Source: Lacrimispora indolis DSM 755
Lineage (GTDB): Bacteria; Bacillota; Clostridia; Lachnospirales; Lachnospiraceae
DNA length: 64,000 nt
Direction: 5' to 3'
NCBI RefSeq assembly: GCF_000526995.1
Contig: NZ_AZUI01000001.1
Location: forward strand, 620,001-684,000
Within the stretch, counting starts at the first letter, position 1. The number at the start of each line of letters is the position of its first letter. Made by a program: the position numbers and the translations under genes. Below are positions 37,801 through 55,486 of the stretch, piece after piece. The notes below the pieces were generated by a model. It saw nothing but the letters and a program-made list of their open reading frames with translations, was not told where the DNA came from and ran no database searches.

Positions 37801-40800
37801 CACCAGGCGTTTTTCTTTTATGGTGCTCCAGGTATAGCTGTCTGTCTGGCCTGCTGTAGTGCCGTCATTTTTCAATACGGAAGCCTCATAGACTCCGGTT
37901 CCGTTCCCCTGTTCCTGTACATCAGAAGAAACTCCGCTTCCGTGGGAAATAGCACCATTAATGCCTGATTTGAAAATGATCCGGGTCCACTGGGACGGAA
38001 CACGGTCATACCGGTAGCTGACGGTCAGGTCATCGTTTGGCATGATCCCCGTAAAATCATGGGTTCCGTCAAAGCTTCCGCCGGAAAGCGGTACTGCCGC
38101 AGCACTTTCATAGGTGTATCCGTATAATTCCCGGAACTCTGCACTGACCGCCGTATCCGCTGTTTTCTGCTGTATCTCCGGATTAATGATATTCCTTAAG
38201 TTATTATCAAGGGTGTTATTATCCAGATAACTGACCGTAAACCGATACCCTTCGCCTGTTGCTTCATATATATATGTAATCTCCACCGGCTGGTTGGGCA
38301 TAACTCCCGTAAAACTGCCGTTGTTTCCAAAGCTTCCCTGAACGGCACTGACCAGATTTCCATCTGCGTCATCCGGAGTATCTCCGGCTGTTATGCTTCC
38401 CGACACAAACTGGTATCCATAGAGGTCCAAAGGAGCTGTATTTATAGCATCCTCCGGGTAATAAGCGGTTGCGGCAGGATCATGGATCACGGTTCCGTTC
38501 TCCGTCACATACCGCACCGTTAAATCGGATCTGGCTGACGGATTGTTCCGGTCTACCTTGTATGCGTATTTCACCGCCGCATCCTGTCCCGGCATCCTTC
38601 CTGTAAATTGTCCTGTAGAGCCGTCAAAGTTTCCTATGGGCGCTGCCCCCAGCCCGTCATAATTATATTCAACCGGACTGGTAAGGGAATCCAGGAGACT
38701 CCACAGATATCCATGAATGCTCTTTTTCTGGGACTGGATCTCCGCCTCCACGGAATAAGCACTTTCCGCGGTCGTTGTCTGGAACACGATGGAACCGTTC
38801 TGGTTGGTGTAATCCACCGTGTAATCAAACTTCACATTCGGATCTGATTCCCATATGGCATAGTAGGTAACCGGATCTGCCTGATAGACAGCCGGTAGGG
38901 ATGAAATGTATTCCGGGCTGGCCTGATTATTCACCTTGCTCCAGCCCTTAAACACGTATCCATACCTGGTTACGCTGGGAAGGAGGGCGTTTACGCTGTT
39001 TCCGGCTGTTCCGGTCAGTGTTTCAGGCTGAGGCGTCCCTCCGTTGACCACAAAAGCAATGGAGGCCTCAAGCCGGGTATATTCATAGGTGACTACCACA
39101 TCCTGTCCCGGCATGGTACCGGTTATTTTTCCAAAGGTATCCCCTGCTGTTTCCACTGCAGTCAAGGTACTGCCTGTTCCCTGATCAATGGAAATTCCCG
39201 TCAGTTCATACCCGGAAATACCTGACGGCGGTGGGATTACTACCTCATCACCCGATGCGAAAGACAGGCTGGGGATATCCGGCGCACTGGTTACGGTTCC
39301 TCCTGTAGAGGAATCCCGGTAAGCAAAGCTTACGGCATATCCATTGCGCTTTAAGACCGTATTCCGGGAATTATTTAAGGCGGAGGATCCGACGGTAGCA
39401 TATATCCCGACCCCGTTTCCGCTATCTGCATCCGCAAAAAAGTTGTCTGCAAACGGGCAGGAGGAAAAGCTTCCGGAATAATCAGCCGAAGGTACAGCTA
39501 TAACAACTTCCTGTCCCGAAATTGTTGTCTCTCCCACGGAAGCCTCTGGAATCTGCTCCGAAGTGATACCGATCCGGGACGAACCAAGATCTCCGTCTAC
39601 GGTAATATACTTCCCGTCAGCCAGATAAACATTTGCTTTTTTGCCTTCTGCATTTACATTATCTTTAATGGTAACTTCATTTAAAACCTGAAACTTTCCT
39701 GTGCTGTTAAAATAAATCGCTCCCCGTAAGGCAGACTGGTTCATCCTAACCTCCGCACCATCTAATATAAGATTTGCGCTGTTGGTAATATGTACTGCAC
39801 TGCCCACAGCCGAATCAGGATCACTGCTGGTCACAATATTTTTCTCCAGAACAGCATCCTTATTTAATTGGATGGTTCCCCGGTCAGCCAGAATCAGCGG
39901 ATCATTTTTGTCGGAAACATTTTCTCCGCTTAAGTTAATCCCATCAAGGCGGAGAATAGAACCTGTTCCTGACTGATCCATTTCAATCAGTGGTCCGTCA
40001 CAGTCTTTTTTTAATGCAACCGGCGTTGTTATGCGGTTCCGCTGATGGTCAACATCTGCAGTTTTAATTGTAATATCAGGGCTTCCCCCACTTTCACCAA
40101 TTACAATGGTTTGGTTAACCGGAGCGTAATCCTGAATATAGATATATCCTTTCTTTGTACCAATGGCCTGTTTTGCTCTTTCTATTGTATTAAACGGTTT
40201 ATCATATTCACCTGTTCCAGTTACGTCGTCTCCATGAACGGACGAGACATAATAAGTTTGTTCCTGCGCTTTAAAGGCAACTTTTCTAACCACCTTCTGA
40301 TAAGGACCCAAATCAAGCTTCCATGAATAAGACATTTTTGTGTCCATGTTTTCAATCCAATGGACTGTTCCATCGGTCTTATGATTCGCATTTGTCGGCT
40401 CATCAGATAAGTTAGCATAATACCTGGCATTATGGTAACTGCTACTGTTGTTGGTTATCGAATTAGAAAATACCATATAGTCACTTCCGGCCCATCTGGA
40501 ATCTACTGTTGTTACCCCCAATTCCCTTCCCACCTCGCTGTCACCATTTGTAACAACATCAAAGGTTTGCTTGGTGGCTTCATTTACCATATGGAATCCC
40601 TGGTCATCAAGATAAAGGGTAGATGCATCAGCCGGGTCAGAAGGCCCCCCGGAATATCCGATTCCATCTCCTACCATGATATCCGCACCAGTCGCCATGT
40701 ACATGGTTTTAGGAATATTTTCATTATTGTACATAACATACTCTACCATGGTCCATTTTCGGTCAGCACTGGGATATACCTTCATCTGCACTTCCACATT

Positions 40801-41268
40801 ATAACCACGGTCAGTAATCTTTTGTACACCGCCATTATTCTCAATTGTTATTGGATAGGCGATGGTATCGTTTTCACTTCCAGACCTGATTACTGTTTTA
40901 AAACCAGAATAGTCCCATGTAACAGGAACTGCATCATGAGGTTGTAATTGGATACCTCCAGTATTGTTATTCTGGTATTTTCCAGGATCCAGATTGATAT
41001 ATGGATGCTCTGCCCCAATCCGCTCCGGATCAAGAATTCCCTGAATATTAAACCCATACCATCGATCATAAGACACTTGTCCATTTGGATCGTTCCTACC
41101 CCAATAATAAGCAGAGTTTAAACCACCTCCGTTATTTTTCATACTTGTATCAGGATTCAGCTCAGTATCGGCATAAGCAGTAATTCCTGATATGGATAGC
41201 GTATTCAGTAACATTGCAAAAGCCAACACTCTTGCTACAATCCGTTTCAGCCTATGTATAAACTTCAA
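34864..41268 (-). CDS. Giant secreted cell-wall-binding surface protein (paralog A)
   Basis: The protein has 2134 residues. A signal peptide (RVLAFAMLLNTLSISGITAYADT) is followed by a unique globular part to about residue 340. A beta-helix region starts YYVSSVHGDDVTGTGEYDKPFNTI. Next come Listeria-Bacteroides-type repeats (RYGYVFKGWSKV) and several MucBP-like repeats ending TGTMPGQDVVVTYEY, TGRMPGQDAAVKYAY or TGIMPNDDLTVSYRYD. Further on are a helical spacer (KELEDAIKAAIDKSDDYF), a Gly/Ser linker and choline-binding-like wall repeats over the last 175 residues. The TTG start at 41266-41268 has AGGAGG upstream. It is the last gene of the four-gene surface operon and a near-duplicate of 46048-52374 over its later part. 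An adhesin role is inferred. Confidence 0.88.
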   Translation of the reverse strand: MKFIHRLKRIVARVLAFAMLLNTLSISGITAYADTELNPDTSMKNNGGGLNSAYYWGRNDPNGQVSYDRWYGFNIQGILDPERIGAEHPYINLDPGKYQNNNTGGIQLQPHDAVPVTWDYSGFKTVIRSGSENDTIAYPITIENNGGVQKITDRGYNVEVQMKVYPSADRKWTMVEYVMYNNENIPKTMYMATGADIMVGDGIGYSGGPSDPADASTLYLDDQGFHMVNEATKQTFDVVTNGDSEVGRELGVTTVDSRWAGSDYMVFSNSITNNSSSYHNARYYANLSDEPTNANHKTDGTVHWIENMDTKMSYSWKLDLGPYQKVVRKVAFKAQEQTYYVSSVHGDDVTGTGEYDKPFNTIERAKQAIGTKKGYIYIQDYAPVNQTIVIGESGGSPDITIKTADVDHQRNRITTPVALKKDCDGPLIEMDQSGTGSILRLDGINLSGENVSDKNDPLILADRGTIQLNKDAVLEKNIVTSSDPDSAVGSAVHITNSANLILDGAEVRMNQSALRGAIYFNSTGKFQVLNEVTIKDNVNAEGKKANVYLADGKYITVDGDLGSSRIGITSEQIPEASVGETTISGQEVVIAVPSADYSGSFSSCPFADNFFADADSGNGVGIYATVGSSALNNSRNTVLKRNGYAVSFAYRDSSTGGTVTSAPDIPSLSFASGDEVVIPPPSGISGYELTGISIDQGTGSTLTAVETAGDTFGKITGTMPGQDVVVTYEYTRLEASIAFVVNGGTPQPETLTGTAGNSVNALLPSVTRYGYVFKGWSKVNNQASPEYISSLPAVYQADPVTYYAIWESDPNVKFDYTVDYTNQNGSIVFQTTTAESAYSVEAEIQSQKKSIHGYLWSLLDSLTSPVEYNYDGLGAAPIGNFDGSTGQFTGRMPGQDAAVKYAYKVDRNNPSARSDLTVRYVTENGTVIHDPAATAYYPEDAINTAPLDLYGYQFVSGSITAGDTPDDADGNLVSAVQGSFGNNGSFTGVMPNQPVEITYIYEATGEGYRFTVSYLDNNTLDNNLRNIINPEIQQKTADTAVSAEFRELYGYTYESAAAVPLSGGSFDGTHDFTGIMPNDDLTVSYRYDRVPSQWTRIIFKSGINGAISHGSGVSSDVQEQGNGTGVYEASVLKNDGTTAGQTDSYTWSTIKEKRLVPLAQADQYYRFAGWFIDQNGNGSLDAGEQLLEEDHRFTGDETVTALFEEDPEKWINIQFAAGEHGSLADGSISSLHIQYDRTWGDIAGQIPGYVPEVNYLVDGWYDGDTEVESTDGLKNGHTYTIRFYPDPAVFGTDVAAPDASGGLNGEGKGKITVYHTTAGYQYVITDLSGKIVGVQTGTIAGRVYFDGLYPGARYLVYEAAGTVNAVVGNQIGETAGNISDPVEVLTPVVETNYQILYDENHEGKTVLVIKPADKKSDYAVLSKEGTVILTQETGSDGWQTVTGNPGSVTFSGLNYNEEYIVVARPKGETGITAESRLPDGSAITTDPGGALEIPNYIVETLEGRVVSVDQEEIDAARYEEAHKGDKVKITADASKGAGETFLYWKITIGSVPGLTGKLYERELAFDMPDTNLVFTAYYSRPVASPSNATVVDEVRGGSGNDIALDPGEIPDLEEELTTDADRILMDQNHADVTYKVVYTKNAAKATESNAVKASPEYNSDHSQAFKAAWGLNVDIERYVNGRKTAMATPSDAEFTTFIQLGKDDVDMMDYQLYRIFTDPDDGSVQTELVEMSDDPEETGGLFTFTAQAGMRYVMVYSKAYRLYFLNQIAIPKYQYYFKVRKGEAPSDGYYSFEYGQVEEPEDLFISEEGVEYNYVGWSYREDRLNEFDPDREISRKTYVYAYYQDNQKEVDHARKELEDAIKAAIDKSDDYFLTLKETGKLKEAIEEALEVLERTSPKATLDELLEALEKLQEVTKPLDEALEDRYDHYDKIQGSGSKGGSKGGGGSGSGIKASPYNPSRSRSYTVGTNGNWEELSGTGRQWAFVLNGGIRLTGMWAKLDYASGDVSKNGWYHFNANGIMDYGWFRDEKLDWYYCNTEADGWFGKMKTGWHYDKEDSRWYYLDPETGMMAKGWRNINGKWYYFTEQNSMETYHYDPATEKWIYKNNEGRPLGSMYISEMTPDGYSVGGDGAWLQ

Positions 41269-41555: not shown

Positions 41556-44500
41556 CTACGGGGTCTCCGGTATCCATTCCCCGCTGTCCTCCACATAATA
41601 TCCATCCGGTGTCACTTCATTCCGGTACATGGAGCCCAATGGCCGTTCTGATTTGTCTGCAAAAAACCACTTTCCGGTTTTCTGATCCAGATGCCATGTC
41701 TGCCTGCTGTTTTCCGGTGCCAGATAATACCATTCACCGTCTATTTTCTGCCAGCCGGTAAGCATGGCACCGTTAAACAGATTTAGGTAGTACCATCTTC
41801 CGTCATTTTCATCAAGATGCCAGCCGGTTTTAAGGCGGCCAAACCAGCCGTCGTGAATCGTGGACATGAAATACCATTTTCCTTCTTCATCCAGAAACCA
41901 GCCGCTGTCCATTGTTCCTTCCATATCAAAATGGTATGTATAAATCAGCGTTGTTCCGTTATGAGAGTAGCGGATATTCGCCCACTGGCCTTTTAGTTTC
42001 GTTCCGCTGCTTAAAACAAAGGACCAGCCATTATTCGCGGCGTCAAAATTATCCCAGTAGCCATCCACATCATTTGTATAAGTTTTATAGCTTCCAAAGC
42101 GGTAAGCCCCTGGTCCAAGGCCGCTGCTTCCGGAACTGCTTCCTCTGCCGGAGCTGCTTCCGCCACCGGAACCGCTTCCGCCGCCGGAACCACTTCCTCC
42201 TCCAGAGCCATTCCCGCCGCCGGAACCATTGCCTCCTCCGGAACCGTTTTCTCCTCCGGAGCCGTTTTCTCCTCCAGAGCCACTTCCGTTTCTGATTCCG
42301 TCAACAATATCCTTTAATGTTTGATAAGCATCATTCAGCTGTTCAATCGTAGGACGGGGCAGGGTATCCCGCACGGTGATTGCATCCTGGATCGCATCAG
42401 CCAGTAAGTTCCTGTCTTCCTCACTTACCGTGCCATTGTTTTTCAAAGCATTGGCAATATCGATCTCATCCTCCAGCTGTTTTTTTGCTGCCTGCCACAA
42501 GGAATCATCTTCCTGTTCATACACTGCATAAAGCTGGAGATCTTTGTTAACCGGAGCCGTGACATCATACGTAGCGGAAGCTCCTGCCTGTTTTCCCAAT
42601 CCTGCAAATTCATATACGATGCCGGTAACCGGATCCGTATAGTCTTCCAGGCATTCAAGATCCATATAACCGTCCGCATCTTCAAGAGCACTACCGGCTC
42701 TTACCTTAAGACTTGCTACTGTTCCCCGTTTTGTATCGGCAATGGTAACCTTATAGGATTTGGAATAGGTCAATAGAATCGTGTCTCCCACATTTGCATC
42801 AAACAGGAACGTACCGGTAAAACCGGCATCCGGATCATTTAAATCAGGTCCCAGGGGGATAATCTCCGTGCATGCCGGATCGTCATCCCCATTTTCAACC
42901 TTCCACAACTGATAATCCATATGGCCCAGAATGCCGGCATCCAGGATTCCATAAACCTGTATATCAGGCGTGTGGTTTCCATCGGAGGGCAGGTTCTTAT
43001 TAATGCCATCCACCTTTCGTGATAATGATATATCTAAAACCCAGGGGATCTTTAATGCCTCACTGTCCACTGATGCAGCTGCTCTCACTGCATTGGACAC
43101 CGTGGCAGTCGGCGTACTTCTCCGGTCAAATTTGACCGTATATTCCACCTCATGTCCTGATACCAGTAAATTCGGATCGGAGGTGTTATCAATCAGATCC
43201 AGCTTTAAAGCTTCCAACAGATCTGTTTGTTTATTAAGAGCAAAGGCTCCATTTTTAGGTGAATAATCCACGGTTGCATTGGAGGCAGTGGCTACGGTCA
43301 TGGACTCATACCGAGCCTGAAGAACTACATCACCGGCCGGCATGGTAACCTGTTGATTCTGCTGGGCTGCAAAAATAGACATAGAACCAAGCAGGCACTC
43401 CCACTTTACAAAGTTGTATCCGGTTATATCCGGAGCTTTTATCCTAATTTTATCTCCTTTGCGGACGCTTATTTGGGTCGCTCCCTCTTCGATCTCCAGG
43501 GCTGCACCATCTCTGATGACTTCCGCTGCATAGCCTCCGTTAGTGATATACAGAGTATAAGTCCTGTTATCTGTCTGGGTTGATTCTTCTAAAAGGATCC
43601 GATTTCCCAGCAATAATTTCTCAGATGGAGCTTCTGTCTCTCCCAAATGCTTTGCAACTACCGTGTATTCCCGTCCTGATTCCAGATCCGGGAATACGAC
43701 TGCAGACGGACTTCCTGAAGCTGTCAGCCAGCCGTCTGATGATCCGGCGGGTAAAACCACATTCTCATCGCCATCAAGAAGCGCATAAAGCGTATCCCCT
43801 GCCGCAGGACTGATGGTAATTTTTTTCCTGCCTTCATTTCCGTCATTTGCAATGGAATAGTTGCTGCCAAGTGTAACAATGCCCACTCTTGCAGGCTGGC
43901 TTGTCAGGGATCCATCCACATGATCGGTCAGCAGGTCACCGGCAACGGGAGCTGCGGTTAATGAAAGTTCATAAATATAATAATAGGTACAAGGACCCAG
44001 TCCTGTAAATTTCCCGTTTTGCAGCTGGGAACCTGTCATAACAGATATCACAACGCCCTCGGTATCCGTAACTACATACTTCCGCTCTTCATTTGCACCA
44101 TTTATCTGGATTTGTCCGGTTCCATTCGCTGCTACGGTTCCGGCAGCATCAGGAATACTTAATATTCCGTCGTCTCCTGCAATTGGCGTAAATCTGGCCG
44201 TATATCTTTGATCTGAAAGAATCTGAAGGCTGTTTTGTACCTGGTTTCCATTTTCATCATACCAACCGGCAAAAAGATAGTTGTTGTCCGCATGGGTTTC
44301 AGGAAGCACAAGATCGGTCCAGGCCGTCTCCTTAGCCACATGGGCTGTGGCGGTTCCTGAAATGCTCCCATGGCTTCCGGATACAAAGACCAGATCAAAC
44401 CATTCATTAGGATCCTCTTCAAAATTTGCAATTAACTTTAAGTTCTCATTTAACTCCACATCACCGGTAAGCCTTGCTCCGGTCTTTCCGGTTCCACTTA

Positions 44501-46037
44501 AATTGGCCTTATACCAACCGTCAAATATGTAGTGAGATGCCGGTGACGGGGTGATATTCTGAGTCAGCTCGTCAATTGAATAGGTATTCAAGCGGAAGGA
44601 CTTGGGAGATGTGTCTCCGGACAGAGTTCCATTGGCACTGTTATAATAATCAATTCGGGCCCAATAATCGGGATCTGTCAAGTCTTCGTTATAAGTAATG
44701 GTAACGGCGCCTCCAAGAACATCGGTCTGAAAGGTCAGCTTTTCTTCCGTCTGATCCAGAGCGAGATTCGTGAAATTGCCATTCCATGTGATGTTGGGCG
44801 GATACGAGTATCCTGATTTTCTTTCTACCGTCAGCTCAACAGGATCAGCCGGTGAAACGGACAGATTCTGAGGCTCTGAAAGAATGTTATTGTGATTGTC
44901 CACCGTATTTACGATGATATGAGTCGTGTAATCCGGATCTAACTGATACTTATAAGTAATGATCACCATCTGATTGGGCATCTTCCCTGTATAATCCTTA
45001 ACCTCATCAAATCCGCAGCCGGCGGTAGCTGCAGAATAAATACCTCTGCCGCTTAAATCATCCGTATCACCGTATCCTGACTTTACTTCTGCATCAATAA
45101 GTTCATATGCCGTGATGCTTTCCGGAGAAACTGAAAATGAAGTTTCTGCAGAGTAAGCATAAGCATCCGGTGTTTTTATTGCTGTGCCGTCTACGTCCAC
45201 ATATTCCACACGCAGCGTGAATTTCTTGCTGGTATCCGGCTCATAGCGGTAAGCAACCGTAAGATCGTCATTGGGCATATATCCCCGGATCGCATTGGTA
45301 GAAGTGTTGACAGTTGCCGCTTCATCCAGGGTTCCTGCCCCGCTCTCATCATCAAATCTTCTGATTTTGTTATTTTTAATCAGCACTGATTTTAATTTAT
45401 ACCCCGGTATATTCCTTTTATATGTGGCTGAAACCGGTGTATTGGCCGTTACCGGATGGACCCAGGTTCCGTCGTCAAAAAATCGGATCGCCTGGCTGTC
45501 GCCGGCTGATGGCCAGGCAGACTGATTGCTGCCATCCGTCATACTGTCTCTTGCCGCATTTAGATCGCGGTAATGCATGACAGTAAAATTAAACTGACTG
45601 CTGCTGTTTCCATTCCACACCGCTTTATAGGTTTCCGGTGACAAATAGGGAAATGCGTAAGGCAAATTAAGAACCTTATTCCCGTCTTCATTGTACCAGC
45701 CGTCAAAGGTATAGCCCGGCCACTCAACCTGAAATACCGGCAGCTTGGGCCTTGGCCCGGATCCTCTGTCTTCTGTTTCAATTCCACTAAAAACGGGTGC
45801 AGACGTCAGGGCATACCCTGCCTGCCCGGTTGCGTATGAAATTCCGTTTTCGTATCTTGGCACATTCGCATATGTGGAATGTGACAGATTCGGCCCCCTC
45901 TGAGGATCAAATTGAATGATCGAAGGATCGCCGTAATTCAATGCTGCCATTGACGCGGGCGGTGCCGCCATGGTAATAACCATGGCGGCTGCCAGTATCA
46001 AAGCAGTCTGTGCTTTCCATTTCTTCCTGTTTTTCAT
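41556..46037 (-). CDS. Large secreted cell-wall-binding surface protein (protein B)
   Basis: The protein has 1493 residues. A signal peptide (ALILAAAMVITMAAPPASMAA) is followed by YTFDGWYNEDGNKVLN-type repeats, MucBP-like units (GYMPNDDLTVAYRYEPD, GKMPNQMVIITYKYQ), InlB-type segments such as YLFAGWYDENGNQVQ, a helical spacer, and a tandem Gly/Ser/Asn linker. The end has choline-binding-like repeats (GWFLDEEGKWYFMS, GWHLDENDGRWYYLN). It lacks the beta-helix N-terminal half of the two paralogs. The ATG at 46035-46037 has AAGGAGGAG that overlaps the stop codon of the upstream giant gene, so both are co-transcribed and coupled. Confidence 0.88.
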   Translation of the reverse strand: MKNRKKWKAQTALILAAAMVITMAAPPASMAALNYGDPSIIQFDPQRGPNLSHSTYANVPRYENGISYATGQAGYALTSAPVFSGIETEDRGSGPRPKLPVFQVEWPGYTFDGWYNEDGNKVLNLPYAFPYLSPETYKAVWNGNSSSQFNFTVMHYRDLNAARDSMTDGSNQSAWPSAGDSQAIRFFDDGTWVHPVTANTPVSATYKRNIPGYKLKSVLIKNNKIRRFDDESGAGTLDEAATVNTSTNAIRGYMPNDDLTVAYRYEPDTSKKFTLRVEYVDVDGTAIKTPDAYAYSAETSFSVSPESITAYELIDAEVKSGYGDTDDLSGRGIYSAATAGCGFDEVKDYTGKMPNQMVIITYKYQLDPDYTTHIIVNTVDNHNNILSEPQNLSVSPADPVELTVERKSGYSYPPNITWNGNFTNLALDQTEEKLTFQTDVLGGAVTITYNEDLTDPDYWARIDYYNSANGTLSGDTSPKSFRLNTYSIDELTQNITPSPASHYIFDGWYKANLSGTGKTGARLTGDVELNENLKLIANFEEDPNEWFDLVFVSGSHGSISGTATAHVAKETAWTDLVLPETHADNNYLFAGWYDENGNQVQNSLQILSDQRYTARFTPIAGDDGILSIPDAAGTVAANGTGQIQINGANEERKYVVTDTEGVVISVMTGSQLQNGKFTGLGPCTYYYIYELSLTAAPVAGDLLTDHVDGSLTSQPARVGIVTLGSNYSIANDGNEGRKKITISPAAGDTLYALLDGDENVVLPAGSSDGWLTASGSPSAVVFPDLESGREYTVVAKHLGETEAPSEKLLLGNRILLEESTQTDNRTYTLYITNGGYAAEVIRDGAALEIEEGATQISVRKGDKIRIKAPDITGYNFVKWECLLGSMSIFAAQQNQQVTMPAGDVVLQARYESMTVATASNATVDYSPKNGAFALNKQTDLLEALKLDLIDNTSDPNLLVSGHEVEYTVKFDRRSTPTATVSNAVRAAASVDSEALKIPWVLDISLSRKVDGINKNLPSDGNHTPDIQVYGILDAGILGHMDYQLWKVENGDDDPACTEIIPLGPDLNDPDAGFTGTFLFDANVGDTILLTYSKSYKVTIADTKRGTVASLKVRAGSALEDADGYMDLECLEDYTDPVTGIVYEFAGLGKQAGASATYDVTAPVNKDLQLYAVYEQEDDSLWQAAKKQLEDEIDIANALKNNGTVSEEDRNLLADAIQDAITVRDTLPRPTIEQLNDAYQTLKDIVDGIRNGSGSGGENGSGGENGSGGGNGSGGGNGSGGGSGSGGGSGSGGGSSSGRGSSSGSSGLGPGAYRFGSYKTYTNDVDGYWDNFDAANNGWSFVLSSGTKLKGQWANIRYSHNGTTLIYTYHFDMEGTMDSGWFLDEEGKWYFMSTIHDGWFGRLKTGWHLDENDGRWYYLNLFNGAMLTGWQKIDGEWYYLAPENSRQTWHLDQKTGKWFFADKSERPLGSMYRNEVTPDGYYVEDSGEWIPETP
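42112..42290. repeat. 18-bp tandem repeats encoding the Gly/Ser linker of protein B
   Basis: About nine units encode GSGGEN, GSGGGN or GSGGGS in turn, in frame. Such repeats tend to change copy number by slippage, which would alter linker length without breaking the frame. Confidence 0.8.
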
Positions 46038-46047
46038 AGTCTCCTCC

Positions 46048-49000
46048 TTAGTGCAGCCATGCTCCATCTCCGCCGACGCTGTATCCGTCCGGCGTCATTT
46101 CGCTGATGTACATGGAGCCCAGCGGTCTCCCTTCATTGTTTTTATAGATCCATTTCTCCGTTGCCGGATCGTAATGATAGGTTTCCATACTGTTCTGCTC
46201 TGTAAAGTAATACCACTTTCCGTTGATGTTCCTCCAGCCCTTTGCCATCATTCCGGTTTCCGGGTCTAAATAATACCAGCGGCTGTCTTCCTTGTCATAG
46301 TGCCAGCCTGTCTTCATCTTTCCAAACCATCCGTCAGCTTCTGTATTGCAGTAATACCAGTCCAGCTTTTCGTCACGGAACCAGCCGTAATCCATGATCC
46401 CGTTGGCATTGAAATGATACCAGCCGTTCTTGCTTACGTCTCCGCTTGCATAATCCAGCTTTGCCCACATTCCCGTCAGACGGATCCCTCCGTTTAACAC
46501 AAAGACCCACTGCCTTCCGGTTCCGGACAGTTCTTCCCAGTTTCCATTGGTTCCTACGGTATAGCTCCTGCTCCTTGACGGATTGTATGGGCTGGCTTTG
46601 ATTCCGCTTCCGCTTCCTCCTCCGCCCTTGCTTCCTCCTTTGCTTCCGGAGCCCTGGATCTTGTCATAGTGGTCATAGCGGTCCTCCAATACTTCATCCA
46701 AAGGCTTTGTGACTTCCTGAAGCTTTTCCAGGGCCTCTAACAGCTCATCCAGCGTTGCCTTCGGAGATGTCCGCTCCAGTACCTCCAGGGCCTCTTCAAT
46801 GGCTTCCTTTAACTTACCGGTTTCCTTTAATGTGAGGAAATAGTCATCGCTCTTATCTATGGCAGCCTTTATGGCATCCTCCAGCTCTTTCCTGGCATGG
46901 TCCACTTCTTTCTGATTGTCCTGGTAATAGGCATAGACGTAGGTTTTCCTGCTGATCTCACGGTCCGGATCGAATTCATTCAGACGGTCCTCACGGTAAC
47001 TCCAGCCTATATAGTTATATTCCACTCCCTCTTCACTGATGAAAAGGTCTTCCGGTTCTTCTACCTGCCCGTATTCAAAGCTATAATACCCGTCACTGGG
47101 GGCTTCTCCCTTTCTTACCTTGAAATAATACTGGTACTTAGGAATGGCTATCCGGTTTAGGAAATACAGCCGGTATGCCTTGGAATACACCAGCACATAA
47201 CGGGTTCCTGCCTGGGCAGTAAAGGTGAATAAGCCGCCGGTCTCTTCCGGGTCCTCTGACAGTTCTACCAGTTCCGCCTGGGCTGATCCGTCATCCGGGT
47301 CCGTAGTGATCCGGTACAGCTGGTAATCCATCATGTCCACATCATCCTTATTCAGCTGGACATAGGTGACGAATTCTGCATCCGATGGCGTGGCCATGGC
47401 CGTCTTTCTTCCGTTGACATATCTTTCGATATCTACATTCAGTCCCCAAGCAGCCTTAAACGCCTGGCTGTGATCGCTGTTGTATTCTGGCGATGCCTTC
47501 ACTGCATTGGATTCCGTTGCCTTTGCGGCATTCTTTGTATATACCACCTTATAGGTCACATCCGCATGGTTCTGATCCATCAGGATCCGGTCTGCATCAG
47601 TGGTCAGCTCTTCTTCTAAATCCGGTATCTCCCCCGGATCAAGGGCGATGTCATTTCCGCTTCCACCCCGGACCTCATCCACTACCGTTGCAATGCTCGG
47701 ACTGGCAACCGGCCTGGAATAGTACGCGGTAAACACCAGGTTGGTATCCGGCATGTCAAAGGCCAGCTCTCTCTCATAAAGCTTTCCGGTAAGTCCCGGA
47801 ACCGATCCTATGGTAATCTTCCAATAAAGGAAGGTCTCCCCGGCTCCCTTGGACGCGTCTGCTGTGATCTTTACCTTGTCTCCCTTATGGGCTTCTTCAT
47901 ATCTGGCTGCATCGATCTCTTCCTGATCAACACTCACCACACGGCCTTCCAGAGTCTCCACGATATAGTTGGGGATTTCCAGAGCACCGCCCGGATCTGT
48001 GGTAATTGCCGATCCGTCTGGCAGCCTGCTTTCTGCCGTAATCCCTGTCTCTCCTTTTGGTCTGGCTACTACGATATACTCCTCGTTGTAGTTCAGCCCG
48101 GAAAAAGTCACGCTTCCCGGATTTCCTGTCACTGTCTGCCATCCGTCACTTCCGGTTTCCTGAGTAAGGATCACGGTTCCTTCTTTACTTAAGACTGCGT
48201 AATCCGACTTCTTATCGGCAGGCTTGATCACCAGCACCGTCTTTCCTTCGTGGTTCTCATCATACAAGATCTGGTAGTTGGTCTCCACCACCGGAGTCAG
48301 CACCTCCACCGGATCACTGATGTTTCCTGCTGTTTCTCCGATCTGGTTTCCTACGACTGCATTCACAGTTCCTGCTGCCTCGTACACAAGGTATCTGGCT
48401 CCCGGATAAAGTCCGTCAAAATACACCCGGCCTGCAATGGTTCCTGTCTGCACTCCCACGATTTTTCCGCTTAGATCCGTAATGACATACTGATAGCCTG
48501 CCGTGGTGTGGTAAACCGTAATCTTTCCCTTTCCTTCTCCGTTAAGTCCGCCAGAGGCATCGGGAGCTGCCACATCCGTTCCGAATACTGCCGGATCCGG
48601 ATAGAAGCGTATGGTATAGGTGTGTCCGTTCTTTAATCCATCTGTTGATTCCACTTCCGTATCCCCGTCATACCAGCCATCCACCAGATAGTTGACCTCC
48701 GGCACATAGCCTGGGATCTGGCCTGCGATATCTCCCCAGGTCCTGTCATACTGGATATGAAGGGAGGAAATACTTCCGTCTGCCAGGGAACCGTGTTCTC
48801 CTGCCGCAAACTGAATGTTGATCCACTTTTCCGGATCTTCTTCAAACAGGGCCGTAACGGTCTCATCTCCGGTAAAGCGGTGATCCTCTTCCAGAAGCTG
48901 TTCTCCCGCATCTAAGGATCCGTTTCCGTTCTGGTCAATAAACCAACCGGCAAACCGGTAGTACTGGTCAGCCTGAGCCAGTGGCACCAGGCGTTTTTCT

Positions 49001-52000
49001 TTTATGGTGCTCCAGGTATAGCTGTCTGTCTGGCCTGCTGTAGTGCCGTCATTTTTCAATACGGAAGCCTCATAGACTCCGGTTCCGTTCCCCTGTTCCT
49101 GTACATCAGAAGAAACTCCGCTTCCGTGGGAAATAGCACCATTAATGCCTGATTTGAAAATGATCCGGGTCCACTGGGACGGAACACGGTCATACCGGTA
49201 GCTGACGGTCAGGTCATCGTTTGGCATGATTCCCGTAAAGTCATGGGTTCCGTCAAAGCTTCCGCCGGAAGCAGGAACTGCCGCAGCACTTTCATAGGTG
49301 TATCCGTATAACTCCCGGAACTCTGCACTGACCGCTGTATCCGCTGTTTTCTGCTGAACTTCCGGATTAATGATATTTTTTAAACTGCTGTCGCTGGTAC
49401 CATTGTCCAGGAAGTTCACGGCAAAGGCATATCCTTCTTCTGTTGCTTCATATATATATGTAATCTCCACCGGCTGGTTGGGCATAACTCCCGTAAAACT
49501 TCCGTTGTTTCCAAAGCTTCCCTGAACAGCACTGACCAGATTTCCATCTGCGTCATCCGGAGTATCTCCGGCTGTTATGCGTCCCGACACAAACTGGTAT
49601 CCATAGAGGTCCAAAGGAGCTGTACTTATGGCATCTTCCGGGTAATAGGGCGTTACGCCAGGCTCATGAATCACGGTTCCGTTCTCCGTCACATAGCGCA
49701 CTGTTAAACTGGATCTGGCATCCGGGTTATTTCGGTCTACCTTGTATGCGTATTTCACCGCGGCATCCTGTCCCGGCATTTTTCCGGTAAATTGACCTGT
49801 GGCGCCGTTAAAGTTTCCTATGGGCACCGCCCCCAGCCCGTCATAATTGTATTCAACCGGACTGGTATGGGAATCCAGAAGACTCCACAGATACCCATGA
49901 ATGTTCTTTTTCTGGGACTGGATCTCCGCCTCCACGGAATAAGTATTTTCCGTGGTCGTTGTCTGGAACACGATGGAACCGTTCTGGTTGGTGTAATCCA
50001 CCGTGTAATCAAACTTCACATTAGGATCTGATTCCCATATGGCGTAGTAGGTAACCGGATCTTCCGGATAAACGGCCGGAAGAGATGAAATGTATTCCGG
50101 ACCGGACTGGCTGTTTACCTTGCTCCAGCCCTTAAATACATATCCATATCTGGTTACGTTGGGAAGGAGAGCATTTACGCTGTTTCCGGCTGTTCCGGTC
50201 AGGATTTCCGGCTGGGGCGTTCCTCCGTTGACGACAAAGGCGATGGAGGCATTGATCCTGGTGTACTCATAGGTAACCATTACATCCTGCCCCGGCATGG
50301 TACCGGTTATCTTTCCAAAGGTATCCCCTGCTGTTTCCACCGCAGTCAAGGTACTGCCGGTCCCCTGTTCAATGATGATTCCGGACAGTTCATACCCGGA
50401 AATAGCTGACGGCGGCGGAATAACCACTCCATCGCCCGATGCAAGGGACAGGCTGGGGGTATCCGGCGCACCTGTCACGGTTCCTCCCGAAGAGGAATCC
50501 CGGTAAGCAAAGCTTACGGCATATCCATTGCGCTTTAAGACCGTATTCCGGGAATTGCTTAAGGAGGAGGAGCCAATGGTGGCATAAATCCCTGCCCCGT
50601 TTCCGCTATCTGCGTCCGCCAAAAAGTTATCTGCGAACGGACAGGAGGAAAGACTTCCGGAATAATCAGCCGAAGGAACGGCTATAACAACTTCCTGCCC
50701 GGCAGTCGTTGACTCTCCCACAGAAGCCTCTGGAATCTGTTCTGAAGTCACACCGATCCGGGAAGTGCCAAGGTCTCCCTCTACAGTAATGTACTTTCCT
50801 GCAGACAAAAAGACATTTGCCTTTTCTCCTGCCGTATTTGTATTATCTGTAATATGGATATCATTTAATACTGAGATTTCTCCGGTACTATTGAAATTAA
50901 CAGCACCTGAACCATTTGAAATGTTGTTGGAAACCGTACCTGAGTTTATAATCAGGCTGGCACTTCCTGTTACATCCAATGCACTGCCTGATGCGGGATT
51001 TGTTATCTTATTGCCCGTAAAAGTAGTTTCTGCATTAATATAGAGTTCCCCTGCACTCGCTTTCACTAATGGATAATTGCTTACAACACCATTGCCATTT
51101 ATGGTGATATGATTGACTCTTAATTTACTGTTATTTGAACTGACATGAAACATGGGGCCGGTGGGGTTGGTTCCACGCTCCAGTTCCACAATGTCTGAGA
51201 TTGTTTCACCATTTTCATCAAAATTACTGCTTAAAATTGTAATATCTGTTCCAGCTCCAGAGGGAACATTTATTGATCCATTAATAGGATCATAGTCCAT
51301 AATATAAATGTATCCCCTCTTACCATTCAGCTTTGACATTGCATAATCAATTGTTGCAAATGGATTAAGATATGAACCATCCCGGGAGGTACTGTCAGCT
51401 CCTCTGTCTGATGAAACATAATAAGATGTCGGCCTGACTGTGTATGCCACCCGTCTGCGAGCAATCTCGTATGGACGGACCTCTACTTTCCATGAGTAGG
51501 CAAATGCTGAATCCAGGTATGCACTTGCATTTCCCATTGCATTTGTCTTAATGTCATTACTTGAATTAAAATCATTCTTATTCTCTTTAAATGTATAATA
51601 CTGATAACCTTGGTTTGCTGGGTAAGTAGATTCAAATTCATCCGGTGCTGTAATCAAATGATTACAATTGTAACCTGAACTATATGCGCCGATCCATCGC
51701 TTTACCCCCCACTCTTCCCCATAGATCCTTAAGGCAGGATCATTGGTAATGCATTCAAACGTGGCCATTGCATCAGCCCCGGACTTTCCATTCACCATGT
51801 AAAAGCCTTCTCTTGTCCCAAAGGTTCTGCTGAGATTTGCACCATCATCATCACCTATCTGAACATCTGCGGTAGTCCCAATATACATGGTCTTTGAGGT
51901 AGTATTTTTATTGTAAATATAGTAATCCACAAAAACATACTGTCCATCCGGGCTGGTATTGGTTTTCACCGACACTTCCATATTGGGAAACTTTGCATGG

Positions 52001-52374
52001 TTGGAAGCAAATTCCATGACACCTCCATTGTATGCACCGGAATTAGGCACATAGGTGATTTGGCCGCTATTCAGCGCAGAATCATTCATGTAGGTGTGAT
52101 ATCCTCCAAAACTAAAAACCGTTTGTAAAACCTGGCTGTTACTTGTTTGATAATCATATACACCGCTTTTTTTAATGCCGACCAAATCAAATCTGGCTCC
52201 GTTGCTTAAACTTGCCCATATTGTATTATCATTATGTCCATTGGCAATTTGAGAATTATCAATCTCCGGCAAGGCATATGCAGTGATCCCGCCTGTAACG
52301 GGGATCCCGCCAAGCACAATACAGAAGGCCAGCAGCCCAGCTATTATTCGCTTGATTCTTGTTTTTATTCCCAC
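46048..52374 (-). CDS. Giant secreted cell-wall-binding surface protein (paralog C)
   Basis: The protein has 2108 residues. I chose the GTG at 52372-52374 because GAGGAGG lies nine bases upstream and a signal peptide (IIAGLLAFCIVLGGIPVTGGITAYAL) follows directly; the frame is open for 24 more codons. A unique N-terminal globular part leads to a beta-helix (YYVSSDRGADSTSRDGSYLNPFATID). Then come the same InlB-type, MucBP-like, helical, linker and wall-binding units as in paralog A. From 46048 to about 50800 it aligns with 34864-39616 at a constant offset of 11184 bp without gaps. It is the second gene of the operon. Confidence 0.88.
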   Translation of the reverse strand: MGIKTRIKRIIAGLLAFCIVLGGIPVTGGITAYALPEIDNSQIANGHNDNTIWASLSNGARFDLVGIKKSGVYDYQTSNSQVLQTVFSFGGYHTYMNDSALNSGQITYVPNSGAYNGGVMEFASNHAKFPNMEVSVKTNTSPDGQYVFVDYYIYNKNTTSKTMYIGTTADVQIGDDDGANLSRTFGTREGFYMVNGKSGADAMATFECITNDPALRIYGEEWGVKRWIGAYSSGYNCNHLITAPDEFESTYPANQGYQYYTFKENKNDFNSSNDIKTNAMGNASAYLDSAFAYSWKVEVRPYEIARRRVAYTVRPTSYYVSSDRGADSTSRDGSYLNPFATIDYAMSKLNGKRGYIYIMDYDPINGSINVPSGAGTDITILSSNFDENGETISDIVELERGTNPTGPMFHVSSNNSKLRVNHITINGNGVVSNYPLVKASAGELYINAETTFTGNKITNPASGSALDVTGSASLIINSGTVSNNISNGSGAVNFNSTGEISVLNDIHITDNTNTAGEKANVFLSAGKYITVEGDLGTSRIGVTSEQIPEASVGESTTAGQEVVIAVPSADYSGSLSSCPFADNFLADADSGNGAGIYATIGSSSLSNSRNTVLKRNGYAVSFAYRDSSSGGTVTGAPDTPSLSLASGDGVVIPPPSAISGYELSGIIIEQGTGSTLTAVETAGDTFGKITGTMPGQDVMVTYEYTRINASIAFVVNGGTPQPEILTGTAGNSVNALLPNVTRYGYVFKGWSKVNSQSGPEYISSLPAVYPEDPVTYYAIWESDPNVKFDYTVDYTNQNGSIVFQTTTTENTYSVEAEIQSQKKNIHGYLWSLLDSHTSPVEYNYDGLGAVPIGNFNGATGQFTGKMPGQDAAVKYAYKVDRNNPDARSSLTVRYVTENGTVIHEPGVTPYYPEDAISTAPLDLYGYQFVSGRITAGDTPDDADGNLVSAVQGSFGNNGSFTGVMPNQPVEITYIYEATEEGYAFAVNFLDNGTSDSSLKNIINPEVQQKTADTAVSAEFRELYGYTYESAAAVPASGGSFDGTHDFTGIMPNDDLTVSYRYDRVPSQWTRIIFKSGINGAISHGSGVSSDVQEQGNGTGVYEASVLKNDGTTAGQTDSYTWSTIKEKRLVPLAQADQYYRFAGWFIDQNGNGSLDAGEQLLEEDHRFTGDETVTALFEEDPEKWINIQFAAGEHGSLADGSISSLHIQYDRTWGDIAGQIPGYVPEVNYLVDGWYDGDTEVESTDGLKNGHTYTIRFYPDPAVFGTDVAAPDASGGLNGEGKGKITVYHTTAGYQYVITDLSGKIVGVQTGTIAGRVYFDGLYPGARYLVYEAAGTVNAVVGNQIGETAGNISDPVEVLTPVVETNYQILYDENHEGKTVLVIKPADKKSDYAVLSKEGTVILTQETGSDGWQTVTGNPGSVTFSGLNYNEEYIVVARPKGETGITAESRLPDGSAITTDPGGALEIPNYIVETLEGRVVSVDQEEIDAARYEEAHKGDKVKITADASKGAGETFLYWKITIGSVPGLTGKLYERELAFDMPDTNLVFTAYYSRPVASPSIATVVDEVRGGSGNDIALDPGEIPDLEEELTTDADRILMDQNHADVTYKVVYTKNAAKATESNAVKASPEYNSDHSQAFKAAWGLNVDIERYVNGRKTAMATPSDAEFVTYVQLNKDDVDMMDYQLYRITTDPDDGSAQAELVELSEDPEETGGLFTFTAQAGTRYVLVYSKAYRLYFLNRIAIPKYQYYFKVRKGEAPSDGYYSFEYGQVEEPEDLFISEEGVEYNYIGWSYREDRLNEFDPDREISRKTYVYAYYQDNQKEVDHARKELEDAIKAAIDKSDDYFLTLKETGKLKEAIEEALEVLERTSPKATLDELLEALEKLQEVTKPLDEVLEDRYDHYDKIQGSGSKGGSKGGGGSGSGIKASPYNPSRSRSYTVGTNGNWEELSGTGRQWVFVLNGGIRLTGMWAKLDYASGDVSKNGWYHFNANGIMDYGWFRDEKLDWYYCNTEADGWFGKMKTGWHYDKEDSRWYYLDPETGMMAKGWRNINGKWYYFTEQNSMETYHYDPATEKWIYKNNEGRPLGSMYISEMTPDGYSVGGDGAWLH

Positions 52375-52476
52375 TCTGACTTTCCTCCTCGCAATTAGTA
52401 TTTCTATGGAAAACAAACAGTTCTGATACTGTTTTTCCATATGCAATAAATGGTTTATTTTCTAGAAATACTCATG

Positions 52477-54129
52477 CTAAAAATTAAGTCTCTCTTCTGA
52501 AGGCAATTCATCTGTGGAAGGCTCCGTATCATAGCCGGCAATCATGCCTCCTTCATATGGGTTCTCCTTGTTATTCTTGTCATAATGATAGAAACCGGTT
52601 CCATCAGCTCCATTTCTCCATCTGGGTTTTTCATCATCTCCCACCCAGGCTGCGAATCTGTCATTTATGATAAGGAGATATCCCCCGTCTTTATCCTTTA
52701 CCGCCTTTTTATCACCCTTTACAATCTTTCCGTTGATATCAACTACCTGGTAATACGTTTCATCATTTTTCCGGACCTCTACAACACCGTAGCCATATCC
52801 CTCATCTGCTTCCAGCTTAAGTCCGTTGATGTAATACCGGTCATCTTTTCTCTGAAGCTGGTTCCTGTTACCATATGCCTTTCCGTTTCCGGAAAATCCA
52901 AATGTAAAGACCCCGTCTTCCAGTTCCACTTTGATTTCTTTTCCGGTCTGCATGGAACCGTCGTTTAATTCATCAGGAGAAAACAGATAAAGGTCAGATT
53001 TTTCGATCCCATATAAAGAGCCGTTTATAAAGTCCTCTGAACTCCAGGCATCCATATCGTACTGGGCTACAAACTCTGATTTTCCGTCAAACAATACAAA
53101 GCCGGTCTTCATCCTTCCGATTCCGTCAAAAGCATAATTCTTTCCGCTGATATTACGGATCCGGTTCCGGTAGACTTCTCCGCTTTCATCTGTATGCCAC
53201 CAGCTGCATTCCTGATCATCATAATCCGTTTCATCCAGATCTTCCGACGGATACATCCAGAACCACATATTTTTTAAAAGCCTGCCTCCATCATATGCGG
53301 AATAATATCTTGCGGAGGTGGAACTGGTAGGATTGCTTTTATCCGCATTGCTGATGGTAGCCACTTTGCTCCACCATGGGATCATAATTCCATTTTCGTC
53401 AAATCCATAAGTATATCCGCCAATGTTCCTTTGCCGTAAATTCTCTCCTTTGCTGTAAACCTTTTTGGAGTTTCCGTCAAAATAAATCCACATTTTTTCA
53501 TAATCTGAATAATAGCGGTCAGTAATGGCACTTAGCAGTTCTGAACCGCCGACTCCATTGCCGATTTCGCCATAATCCAGCCATTTGTCTGTATACAGAA
53601 TGCCGTCTTCTCCAGAATAATAGGCCCCTTCCACAAAGGGATCATCAGAATCATTGACGGAATTTCCATTTTCATCAAACCAGCCGGTCATCATCCGACC
53701 GTCCTCGTGAAAGATATAGGTATTTCCGTTGATCTTCTTTTTGAAACTGTTATTCTTCCTCTGATATGCCTTGCCGTCTGTTCCGAAATAGTACCAGCCT
53801 TCTTCAAAGTTTCCTTCCGGATCCTTGGATTCATCGATCCGGATCCAGGTGTTTTGAACCATCTTTCCCTCTTCATCCACAAAATAACTGGTGCTTCCAA
53901 GACTGAATATACAGTTCTTAAGAATCGTCCCTTCGGATGATAAGTAATACCAGCTATCCTTTGACTTTTTCCAGGCATTTGTCACCTGATGGTCATCCGA
54001 ATCCAGGTATGACCATTCACCATTTTCGATTTTCCAGCCTTCCGCCGCTAAGGCATCTTCGTAAAAAGAAGATGTTAAAAATCCTATTGAAAACGCAAGA
54101 ACTGTCAATACACATAACCTCTTTTTCAT
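52477..54129 (-). CDS. Secreted protein made of cell-wall-binding repeats (protein D)
   Basis: The protein has 550 residues. A signal peptide (KKRLCVLTVLAFSIGFLTSSFYEDALAAEG) is followed by choline-binding-like repeats over most of its length: WKIENGEWSYLDSDDH, WKKSKDSWYYLSSEG, GWYYFGTDGKAYQ, MMTGWFDENGNS and others. It has no other domain that I can name. It is the first gene after the invertible segment, so its leader (54130-54232) and the segment decide transcription of the whole operon. AAGGAAGG lies 12 bases before the ATG, a rather long distance. Confidence 0.85.
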   Translation of the reverse strand: MKKRLCVLTVLAFSIGFLTSSFYEDALAAEGWKIENGEWSYLDSDDHQVTNAWKKSKDSWYYLSSEGTILKNCIFSLGSTSYFVDEEGKMVQNTWIRIDESKDPEGNFEEGWYYFGTDGKAYQRKNNSFKKKINGNTYIFHEDGRMMTGWFDENGNSVNDSDDPFVEGAYYSGEDGILYTDKWLDYGEIGNGVGGSELLSAITDRYYSDYEKMWIYFDGNSKKVYSKGENLRQRNIGGYTYGFDENGIMIPWWSKVATISNADKSNPTSSTSARYYSAYDGGRLLKNMWFWMYPSEDLDETDYDDQECSWWHTDESGEVYRNRIRNISGKNYAFDGIGRMKTGFVLFDGKSEFVAQYDMDAWSSEDFINGSLYGIEKSDLYLFSPDELNDGSMQTGKEIKVELEDGVFTFGFSGNGKAYGNRNQLQRKDDRYYINGLKLEADEGYGYGVVEVRKNDETYYQVVDINGKIVKGDKKAVKDKDGGYLLIINDRFAAWVGDDEKPRWRNGADGTGFYHYDKNNKENPYEGGMIAGYDTEPSTDELPSEERLNF

Positions 54130-54188
54130 TCCTCATTATTACCTTCCTTTCTCTTTAGTTACATTTGGAGACAAATTTTCCTTTACAC

Positions 54189-54226
54189 AAAAAAAACTTG
54201 CCGCATCTATTGATATCTGCCTGCAA
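54189..54226 (-). terminator. Candidate leader terminator/attenuator upstream of protein D
   Basis: On the minus strand TTGC...GCA pairs with TGC...GCAA and is followed by eight Ts. It sits between the left inverted repeat and the D start. The stem is imperfect, so its strength is uncertain. An attenuator here would resemble the leader control of cwpV in C. difficile. Confidence 0.4.
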
Positions 54227-54232
54227 ATTACA

Positions 54233-54254
54233 ACAGAATTCCTCTTTTGTTGTA
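54233..54254 (+). repeat. Left inverted repeat of the invertible segment
   Basis: The 22-bp arm begins ACAGAATTCC and ends TTGTTGTA. It is the exact reverse complement of 54458-54479. Homology extends past one mismatch on each side (AC outside, AAG inside). Confidence 0.9.
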
Positions 54255-54278
54255 TAAGAGAAAGAAAAGCCGGGTCTG

Positions 54279-54307
54279 ATTTTACATTCTGGTTGTAAAA
54301 ATTTAAA
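54279..54307 (-). promoter_or_regulatory. Candidate promoter within the invertible segment
   Basis: On the minus strand TTTAAA (54302-54307) is 17 bp from TAAAAT (54279-54284), pointing to protein D. The -35 box is poor. After inversion it would point into the recombinase 3' end instead. Confidence 0.4.
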
Positions 54308-54317
54308 GATAAACACG

Positions 54318-54357
54318 AAAAAAAAGCTGGTTTTACAAGATTTATACAGACCAGCCT
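54318..54357 (-). terminator. Terminator within the invertible segment
   Basis: On the minus strand GCTGGT (54350-54355 complement) pairs with ACCAGC and is followed by eight Ts. In this orientation it would stop recombinase transcripts before they enter the surface operon. After inversion the T-run would be on the wrong side for that. Confidence 0.55.
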
Positions 54358-54456
54358 GTTTATTGTGCGCAAATTTTCAAAAAGGGAGATTTGAAAGAAA
54401 AATACTGGATTTTATTTCCTTTATGTAGTAGAATATTTAAAGATACTGTTCTGCTT

Positions 54457-55347
54457 TTACAACAAAAGAGGAATTCTGTCGTCAATGCCAACCAGCAATT
54501 GGAGACCTTCCAGCTGCCTTATATGGTTATAGCCGCTTTCCATAGTATAAATACGGGTCGTGTTAACGCTGCTATGTCCCAATATATCCGCAAGCCTGGA
54601 TAAATCTTTTTCTGAATCATAATAAGACCTGGCAAATAAGTGGCGCAAATTATGGGGATAAATTTTTTCCCGTGCAACTCCCGCCTCTGATCCCAATGCC
54701 TTCATATCTCTCCAGATATTGCTTCTGTCCAGCGCAGCTCCATTCCTTGTTATAAAAATCATACCGCTTTTGATATGCTGTTTCTGTGCATATCTAATTA
54801 ACATCTGAGATAACTGTCTTGTAAGAAATACCGTTCTCACCTTCCCCTTACAATCCACTTCCGCCTTTCCTTTTACAGCAGCCTCAACCGTAATATAAGG
54901 TAATTCGGACACTCGAATTCCGGTTGAACAGATCGTTTGCAGAAGTAAAGCCATTCGTTCATTGCCTTTATCCAAAGCAGTCTTTACCAATCTCTTATAC
55001 TCAGCCTTTGACAGCTCTTTGTTTTCTGAACAAAAAGTGTTGCGGCTGATTTTAAGGAACTTTACTTTACAATCCCCCCAATTGCAATAATTAAAAAAGC
55101 CATTAAGAGCAGCCAAAGCCCCATTAACAGTCACAGGAGCCATATTTCCCCGCAACGCACCTTTCCACATTATTACAATTTCTTTGTTAGCAGATCTTCC
55201 ATTGAGATAGTTCATGAATAAGCAAAGATGATGCCGGTATCTCAGTATTGTTTCCTTGCTTTTTTCACATCCATGCAACCATGTACAATATTCATCGATC
55301 AGCGTATCCGTAACGATTCTTTCTTTTCGTTTACAGGCCTTATCCAT
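54457..55347 (-). CDS. Tyrosine recombinase (candidate DNA invertase)
   Basis: The protein has 296 residues. An N-terminal SAM-like core-binding domain (DTLIDEYCTWLHGCEKSKETILRYRHHLCLFMNYL) is followed by the catalytic domain. The catalytic residues visible are Arg in CSTGIRVSEL, His-x-x-Arg in PHNLRHLFARSYY, His in LGHSSVNTT and Tyr in RIYTMESG. AGGAGG precedes the ATG. The stop codon lies in the right inverted repeat at 54458-54479, so the last codons (DDRIPLLL) are part of the recombination site. After inversion the frame would read LLLYKRKKSRV before stopping. No phage, conjugation or tRNA attachment site is nearby, so a dedicated inversion role is favoured over an integrase. Confidence 0.88.
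   Translation of the reverse strand: MDKACKRKERIVTDTLIDEYCTWLHGCEKSKETILRYRHHLCLFMNYLNGRSANKEIVIMWKGALRGNMAPVTVNGALAALNGFFNYCNWGDCKVKFLKISRNTFCSENKELSKAEYKRLVKTALDKGNERMALLLQTICSTGIRVSELPYITVEAAVKGKAEVDCKGKVRTVFLTRQLSQMLIRYAQKQHIKSGMIFITRNGAALDRSNIWRDMKALGSEAGVAREKIYPHNLRHLFARSYYDSEKDLSRLADILGHSSVNTTRIYTMESGYNHIRQLEGLQLLVGIDDRIPLLL
54458..54479 (-). repeat. Right inverted repeat of the invertible segment
   Basis: This is the exact reverse complement of 54233-54254 and includes part of the recombinase stop codon and its last seven codons. Confidence 0.9.
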
Positions 55348-55368
55348 GTTGTCCTCCTATTATGCTAT

Positions 55369-55397
55369 ACCATATTTTAAATACGAATCGTTCCCAA
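55369..55397 (-). promoter_or_regulatory. Candidate recombinase promoter
   Basis: On the minus strand TTGGGA (55392-55397) is 17 bp from TATGGT (55369-55374), just upstream of AGGAGG and the ATG. The remaining gap up to hemW (55487-55766) holds nothing that I can support. Confidence 0.5.
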
Positions 55398-55435
55398 GTT
55401 CGGGGAAAAATATTCTACATTTCCGGAAAGTTATG

Positions 55436-55486
55436 AACAAAAAACAGAAACCCTCTTGTAAAAAAGAACAAGAAGATTTCTGTCTG
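55436..55486 (-). terminator. Terminator of the lepA-hemW operon
   Basis: On the minus strand ACAGAAA...CTTGT pairs with ACAAG...TTTCTGT and is followed by TTTTTTG. It separates hemW from the recombinase gene. Confidence 0.75.

Follow-up and report, generated by a model that had tools for sequence, protein, structure and literature searches.

Does the short non-coding segment ahead of the surface-protein genes of Lacrimispora indolis DSM 755 work as an invertible switch, and how would such a switch act on the genes around it? The segment lies in the 64,000-nucleotide stretch of DNA that we analysed (the window; features in Table 1), and an earlier note made from the letters alone had proposed that it is a recombinase-linked invertible element in front of a surface operon. 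Our reading is that these 203 bp are an invertible promoter/terminator switch, which the tyrosine recombinase next to it operates, and we put the probability of this at roughly three in four. That the segment is invertible at all is very likely, judging from comparisons among related loci, and we infer that it flips in this strain, that its promoter and terminator are active and that the proteins are expressed on the surface.

Table 1. Positions in the window of the candidate switch, the recombinase gene and the downstream operon.
Feature	Position	Strand	Remark
2134-aa protein, paralogue of the 2132-aa protein	34864..41268	-	
1503-aa protein, InlB B-repeat-like domains and choline-binding repeats	41556..46067	-	
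2132-aa protein, choline-binding repeats C-terminal	46048..52446	-	
First operon gene, 550-aa choline-binding-repeat protein	52477..54129	-	PF19127, E = 5.4e-14
Left arm of the inverted repeat (operon-side recombination site)	54233..54254	+	Perfect match to right arm
203-bp segment predicted to invert	54255..54457	.	Counterpart in 14 other same-genus loci
Terminator-like hairpin (54355-54326) and T tract (54325-54318)	54318..54355	-	Operon-facing now
Promoter-like site TGGATT-17-TAGAAT, directed toward the recombinase 3' end	54406..54434	+	Core and spacing conserved
Right arm; codes for the recombinase C terminus and overlaps the stop codon	54458..54479	-	
Tyrosine recombinase (296 aa), the predicted invertase of the segment	54457..55347	-	PF00589, conserved residues
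Terminator-like hairpin in the gap between hemW and the recombinase	55442..55485	-	1 found vs 1.1 expected in shuffles; weak alone

The arms form a perfect 22-bp inverted pair with 203 bp between them, exactly where the earlier note had placed them; they are inverted rather than direct, and the roughly 200 bp between them contain no gene. With up to 3 mismatches allowed, the 6.38-Mb genome has the arm sequence at these two positions and nowhere else, and the reversed control pattern occurs 0 times. The recombinase that had been seen beside the repeats is indeed complete and adjoining, but the right arm does not merely neighbour its gene and lies inside it, over the stop codon. This recombination site across the enzyme's own stop codon is the least expected feature of the locus, an apparently unusual and widespread overlap. 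The recombinase matches Phage_integrase (PF00589) with E = 4.3e-25, and R145, K167, H232, R235, H258 and Y267, which we take to be its catalytic residues, do not vary across 26 aligned sequences. By sequence its nearest solved structures are Xer-type recombinases, and the best NCBIfam scores likewise come from Xer/XerA-type models (up to 126.7 bits, with none reaching its cut-off); the "tyrosine-type DNA invertase" models score about 30 bits.

The arm pair at the recombinase stop is present in 78 of 87 homologous loci versus 2 of 557 points picked at random in these loci as a control, so that chance is not a serious explanation, even though some of the 87 loci are near-duplicates (most loci with identical interiors were kept) and hence not fully independent. 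These 87 had at least 420 bp after the stop and were drawn from 101 loci examined, the other 14 being too short. The 101 comprise 65 of 67 loci from named genome contigs, 22 new loci from a family draw of 397 genomes (20 genomes, including our own, matched at E <= 1e-85) and 14 loci of the genus; L031 and L032, second records of loci already included, were left out of the count. No arm pair was found at the stop in the remaining nine tested loci (L042, L047, L052, L078, L080, L082, L088, L131 and L132). In 52 of the 78 positive loci, an arm contains the last base of the stop codon, and 98 of the 120 homologous proteins listed end in LLL or ILL, as the window arm does in translation; 7887 of 8000 scored candidate proteins reach E <= 1e-60. 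Other recombinases taken as controls (L002-L008, L022, L023, L027 and L030) have no such arm pair at their loci. Three same-genus loci with recombinases of 42-44% identity (L025, L026 and L028) carry an arm pair of their own in the same style and seem to share the design. The repeats are therefore largely kept where the recombinase is kept, a point on which the earlier note had let its proposal depend.

Tyrosine recombinases need identity in the crossover region, and the arm centres look as this would predict. Across 77 loci, the central 7 arm positions show 0 mismatches between the two arms of a locus, compared with 29.0 to 56.4 mismatches per central column expected with arms from different loci, though the exact 9-base seed and an automatic centring weighted partly on arm identity favour identity in this test. 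The 77 rows represent 67 distinct arm pairs (L040 was dropped as too short) and hold 47 different central 7-mers; their register is not constant, differing by a few bases from row to row, and is plainly wrong for L069.

Segments in opposite orientations are also found among relatives, in 3 of 104 similar pairs from the wider family, with collinear flanks in all three. In L045 and L096, two records of Anaerotruncus colihominis, the interior matches at 89.9% on the minus strand and the flanks at 91-96% on the plus strand; for L041 and L046, the respective values are 77% and 86-89%. In the third pair, L071 and L073, the interior is 98.9% identical on the minus strand and the flanks 82-83% on the plus strand. 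The inverted segments of this last pair (6815-7093 of L071 and 6869-7149 of L073) are far more alike than their flanks, and this segment may have moved or been converted independently of its surroundings. In L096 (A. colihominis JM4-15), the recombinase is followed by three arms and a duplication of about 300 bp (271-827), for which reason more than one segment might invert there.

Contig ends point the same way. Downstream of the match, 21 contigs end within 6 kb, 11 of them within 350 bp (p = 5e-9); without L077, L081 and L092, whose contigs end before the arm, inside the recombinase gene, the count is 8 of 18 (p = 3e-6), and upstream it is 3 of 20 (p = 0.11). By eye, the contigs of L087, L064, L038 and L094 stop at the arm boundary. 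An assembly would be interrupted at the segment if the sequenced population contained both orientations, and the repeated arms themselves could have this effect, too. In one genus genome (G018; L109 7993-16294), two to three copies of the recombinase region surround a run of N, one of them partial and located in a long open frame; this may be an assembly artefact.

Within the genus, we find one orientation only. Among 25 genus genomes searched, 16 contain a recombinase match at E <= 1e-30 and 14 a match with the window's arm pair. All 15 same-genus loci (the window's own plus 14, with L024 a duplicate that has the same interior and genome as L018) have their arms at the same place and the segment in the window's orientation, by a margin that is narrow for some of them (e.g., 106 vs 88 for L018). 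The earlier note had regarded a single orientation in all relatives as telling against it; this is what the genus presents, but the three inverted pairs show that it does not hold for the wider family. Its central proposal of a recombinase-linked invertible segment before a surface operon is well supported by the conserved arm pairs, the arm centres, the inverted relatives and the contig breaks, and is held back by the uniform orientation in the genus.

The signals inside the segment are less clear. With a generic matrix, the promoter-like site of the window scores 6.9 toward the recombinase versus 6.4 for the best site on the opposite strand, where the 95% level of the null is 10.6; a generic scan of the region found 5 promoter sites versus 4.4 expected, which is chance level, and includes a weak operon-pointing site in the segment (54307-54279). 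A second matrix, partly trained on the same-genus segments, places the promoter core over its shuffle threshold in 12 of these 14 distinct segments and also in L113 and L114 of another genus; in L115 it is visible in the alignment with a score below threshold. By the generic matrix, L021 is the only confident promoter call among the 14 same-genus segments, and the best site of L016 points away from the recombinase (10.9, not a confident call). Extending the same matrix to 78 distinct segments gave 28 confident promoters, 26 toward the recombinase and 2 away from it, a tally that includes near-identical loci and overstates the bias because L041 and L046 are both scored as pointing toward the recombinase though mutually inverted, so that at least one of these calls is wrong. 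L096 and L071 have no confident call, and the two promoters pointing away are those of L075, whose hairpin direction agrees with the ON state, and L080, whose hairpin disagrees. Left out of the 78 are L024, L057, L059, L084, L119 and L120 (identical interiors), L031 and L032 (second records), L131 and L132, and loci without an arm pair. A motif-based orientation tally for the wider family (22 toward and 6 away above threshold) was rejected, the motif having drifted to T-rich sites outside the genus and its near kin. Since the generic matrix stays below threshold in nearly the whole genus and is inconsistent for L041 and L046, our promoter claim rests on conservation.

The hairpin of the segment went unreported by the built-in terminator scan, which has a loop limit of 8. 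A consensus fold backs it: 3 of its 6 pairs have changed on both sides, and three show some broken cells. The window's own hairpin has much the same score on either strand (15.9 and 16.3). Among the 14 same-genus segments, the hairpin faces the operon in 9, the opposite way in 1 (L017) and is unclear in 4 including the window; for all 78 segments, these counts are 41, 16 and 21. Taken together, the contradiction between L041 and L046 and the tie between strands in the window weaken the promoter part of our explanation.

In our preferred reading, the assembled orientation is probably the OFF state, an assignment based on the conserved but weak promoter-like site that points at the recombinase, with orientation calls that are not fully consistent. 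The promoter would then point antisense into the recombinase gene from its 3' end, its direction implying antisense transcription over that gene, and the operon-facing hairpin would terminate transcripts arriving from the recombinase side. When strand exchange in the arm centres flips the segment, the promoter would face the operon and the four surface-protein genes would be transcribed (ON). OFF would be the commoner state, and we take the calls from the wider family to reflect a bias toward OFF throughout the family, which would likewise account for the one-sided result in the genus, for which a locked switch is another possible cause.

Two well-studied switches invite comparison. In PMC2784873, the C. 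difficile cwpV switch is described as having imperfect 21-bp arms 195 bp apart, a promoter outside the segment, an unlinked recV gene and a terminator predicted in the OFF orientation, with about 5% of cells expressing the protein. The window is similar in its arms of about 20 bp, its segment of about 200 bp, its probably mostly OFF state and the large surface protein downstream; unlike for cwpV/RecV, its recombinase is linked, overlapping the right arm, and its likely promoter lies inside the segment. The comparison to cwpV made in the earlier note is thus apt for size and fails for layout. Because of the linked recombinase and the likely internal promoter, the switch is not a close copy of cwpV/RecV, and its layout is nearer to fim. 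E. coli fim (fimS with FimB/FimE) similarly has a short segment between inverted repeats and an adjacent tyrosine recombinase gene, with a promoter within the segment as is likely for the window, and the Discussion of PMC2784873 adds that orientation also affects the fimE transcript. The window differs from fim by having one linked recombinase instead of two and a site that overlaps the recombinase stop.

The nearness in size to cwpV raises the question of whether the window also works like cwpV, with a promoter upstream of and outside the segment (e.g., that of the recombinase) and an inversion that only makes or breaks a terminator. The terminator-like hairpin facing the operon and the weak scores of any promoter inside the segment would suit this scheme, but it leaves the conserved promoter-like site within the segment unaccounted for, and a hairpin that scores about equally on both strands may not be removed by inversion; we consider it unlikely. 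Somewhat less probable still is that the switch has decayed or become locked in this genus, with no flipping and with the operon expressed, if at all, by other means. The uniform orientation of all 15 same-genus loci and a promoter that is weak by the generic matrix argue for such a locked state, against which stand the intact conserved residues of the recombinase and arm centres that are identical within and co-changed between loci, in the genus too (L012, L021). Moreover, the orientation bias recurs in the wider family, with the caveats on its tally given above, and need not mean locking.

The arms might instead be the attachment or excision site of a mobile element with no phase switch involved. 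The recombinase is Xer/integrase-like, the cassette is patchy among species, and 4 relatives lie on viral contigs with more distant ones on plasmids (best 53% identity). All the same, we regard this as very improbable, given that the arms are inverted, about 200 bp apart and without an enclosed gene, that flanks are collinear where the segment is inverted and that 5 genomes have the recombinase at one and the same place beside hemW.

What would the overlap of site and gene mean for the enzyme itself? As the site overlaps the recombinase stop, inversion can alter what comes after LLL in the protein. Inverting the window in silico adds an 8-residue tail (YKRKKSRV) to the recombinase, and the same operation adds 8 residues (FKKKKNRV) in L009-L011, none in the eight loci L012-L018 and L020, and changes nothing in L021, where the arm lies beyond the recombinase stop. 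This prediction covers the same-genus loci except L019, which gave no readout, and was made by swapping whole arms; a crossover within the arm should not produce the outer-base change that this swap gives in clade B. Tail switching as a general rule was therefore rejected, with eight loci gaining nothing and L021 unchanged, and would be limited to some clades. The recombinases P0043 and P0053 are 94.9% identical and differ in their tails after the arm, which is suggestive only as a sign of tail switching, and the arm-encoded tail of the window recombinase (residues 289-296) is predicted with pLDDT <50. Another recombinase, P0082, looks mosaic, with a C-terminal part exactly like that of P0043 and an N-terminal part unlike it.

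A more far-reaching version of our reading, tentative and in our view rather doubtful, would make these loci a self-latching family of Clostridia switches in which the state of the segment acts back on the enzyme. The OFF state would be kept stable by antisense RNA across the recombinase, and inversion would lift this brake, feed the operon and, in some clades, rewrite the C-terminal tail of the recombinase, in the window by the predicted basic extension of 8 residues. The same cassette would have been put before choline-binding proteins, Tad pili, chemotaxis and signalling genes.

The genes downstream of the cassette are diverse indeed. In the window, four co-oriented open reading frames span 19.3 kb, and each of them matches a choline-binding-repeat model, which bears out the four co-oriented wall-protein genes of the earlier note. 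The 2132-aa and 2134-aa proteins are 78% identical overall and do not differ at all across a run of several hundred residues, located at about 1060-1480 in the displayed portion of the alignment, and this stretch within an otherwise more divergent pair suggests recent gene conversion or recombination between their genes. The recombinase adjoins hemW in 5 of 25 genus genomes (G000, G005, G011, G019 and G020; the contig of G015 stops 184 bp past hemW), and the 550-aa operon gene is found (E <= 1e-100) in exactly these 5, so that switch and operon travel together. A second clade of the genus (L104-L111) has recombinase and switch before a Tad-pilus operon instead, with Pfam matches in L105 (1-15245) to Peptidase_A24, RcpC/CpaB, a ParA-type ATPase, T2SSE, two T2SSF, TadE and a VWA/FctA protein, and in G008 a chemotaxis receptor comes after the cassette. 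For 38 hand-picked proteins after the cassettes of the wider family, the Pfam matches include GGDEF (5), Response_reg (5), SpaA (3), LRR_5 (3), MCPsignal (2), CheW (2) and SLH (2), among the 25 listed of 44 families.

This range of targets resembles what has been reported for Clostridia. PMC5903667 describes invertible sites near signalling and chemotaxis genes, similar to our wider-family cassettes ahead of GGDEF, response-regulator and chemotaxis proteins; the window itself differs in targeting a surface-protein operon, and this likeness is one of downstream genes. The available part of PMC11892184 reports an inverton group 139 with 33 invertons, 32 of them in Clostridia, that is linked to the tyrosine-type invertase group 35. 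Its example from Clostridium sp. D5 has two 26-bp arms that are 205 bp apart by coordinates, and orientation shifts were seen in reads of Clostridium sp. D5 and Intestinimonas. The layout of the window, where inversion is what we infer, fits that of a Clostridia inverton at most 5 kb from a tyrosine-type recombinase, and its switch family is perhaps, to judge by layout, the same as inverton group 139 with invertase group 35. The account of group 139 in that part of PMC11892184 does not describe an overlap of the site with the recombinase stop. The candidate switch of the window is of an already known kind, an invertible switch, and the unusual part is the overlap between the recombinase gene and its site.

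If our reading is true, cells of one clone would differ in a 20-kb set of surface proteins. The site at the stop codon would then let phase-variable operons be predicted from assembled genomes across Clostridia, including those for surface proteins, Tad pili, chemotaxis and cyclic-di-GMP signalling, and the overlap of enzyme gene and site would make the feedback hypothesis for the OFF bias directly testable.
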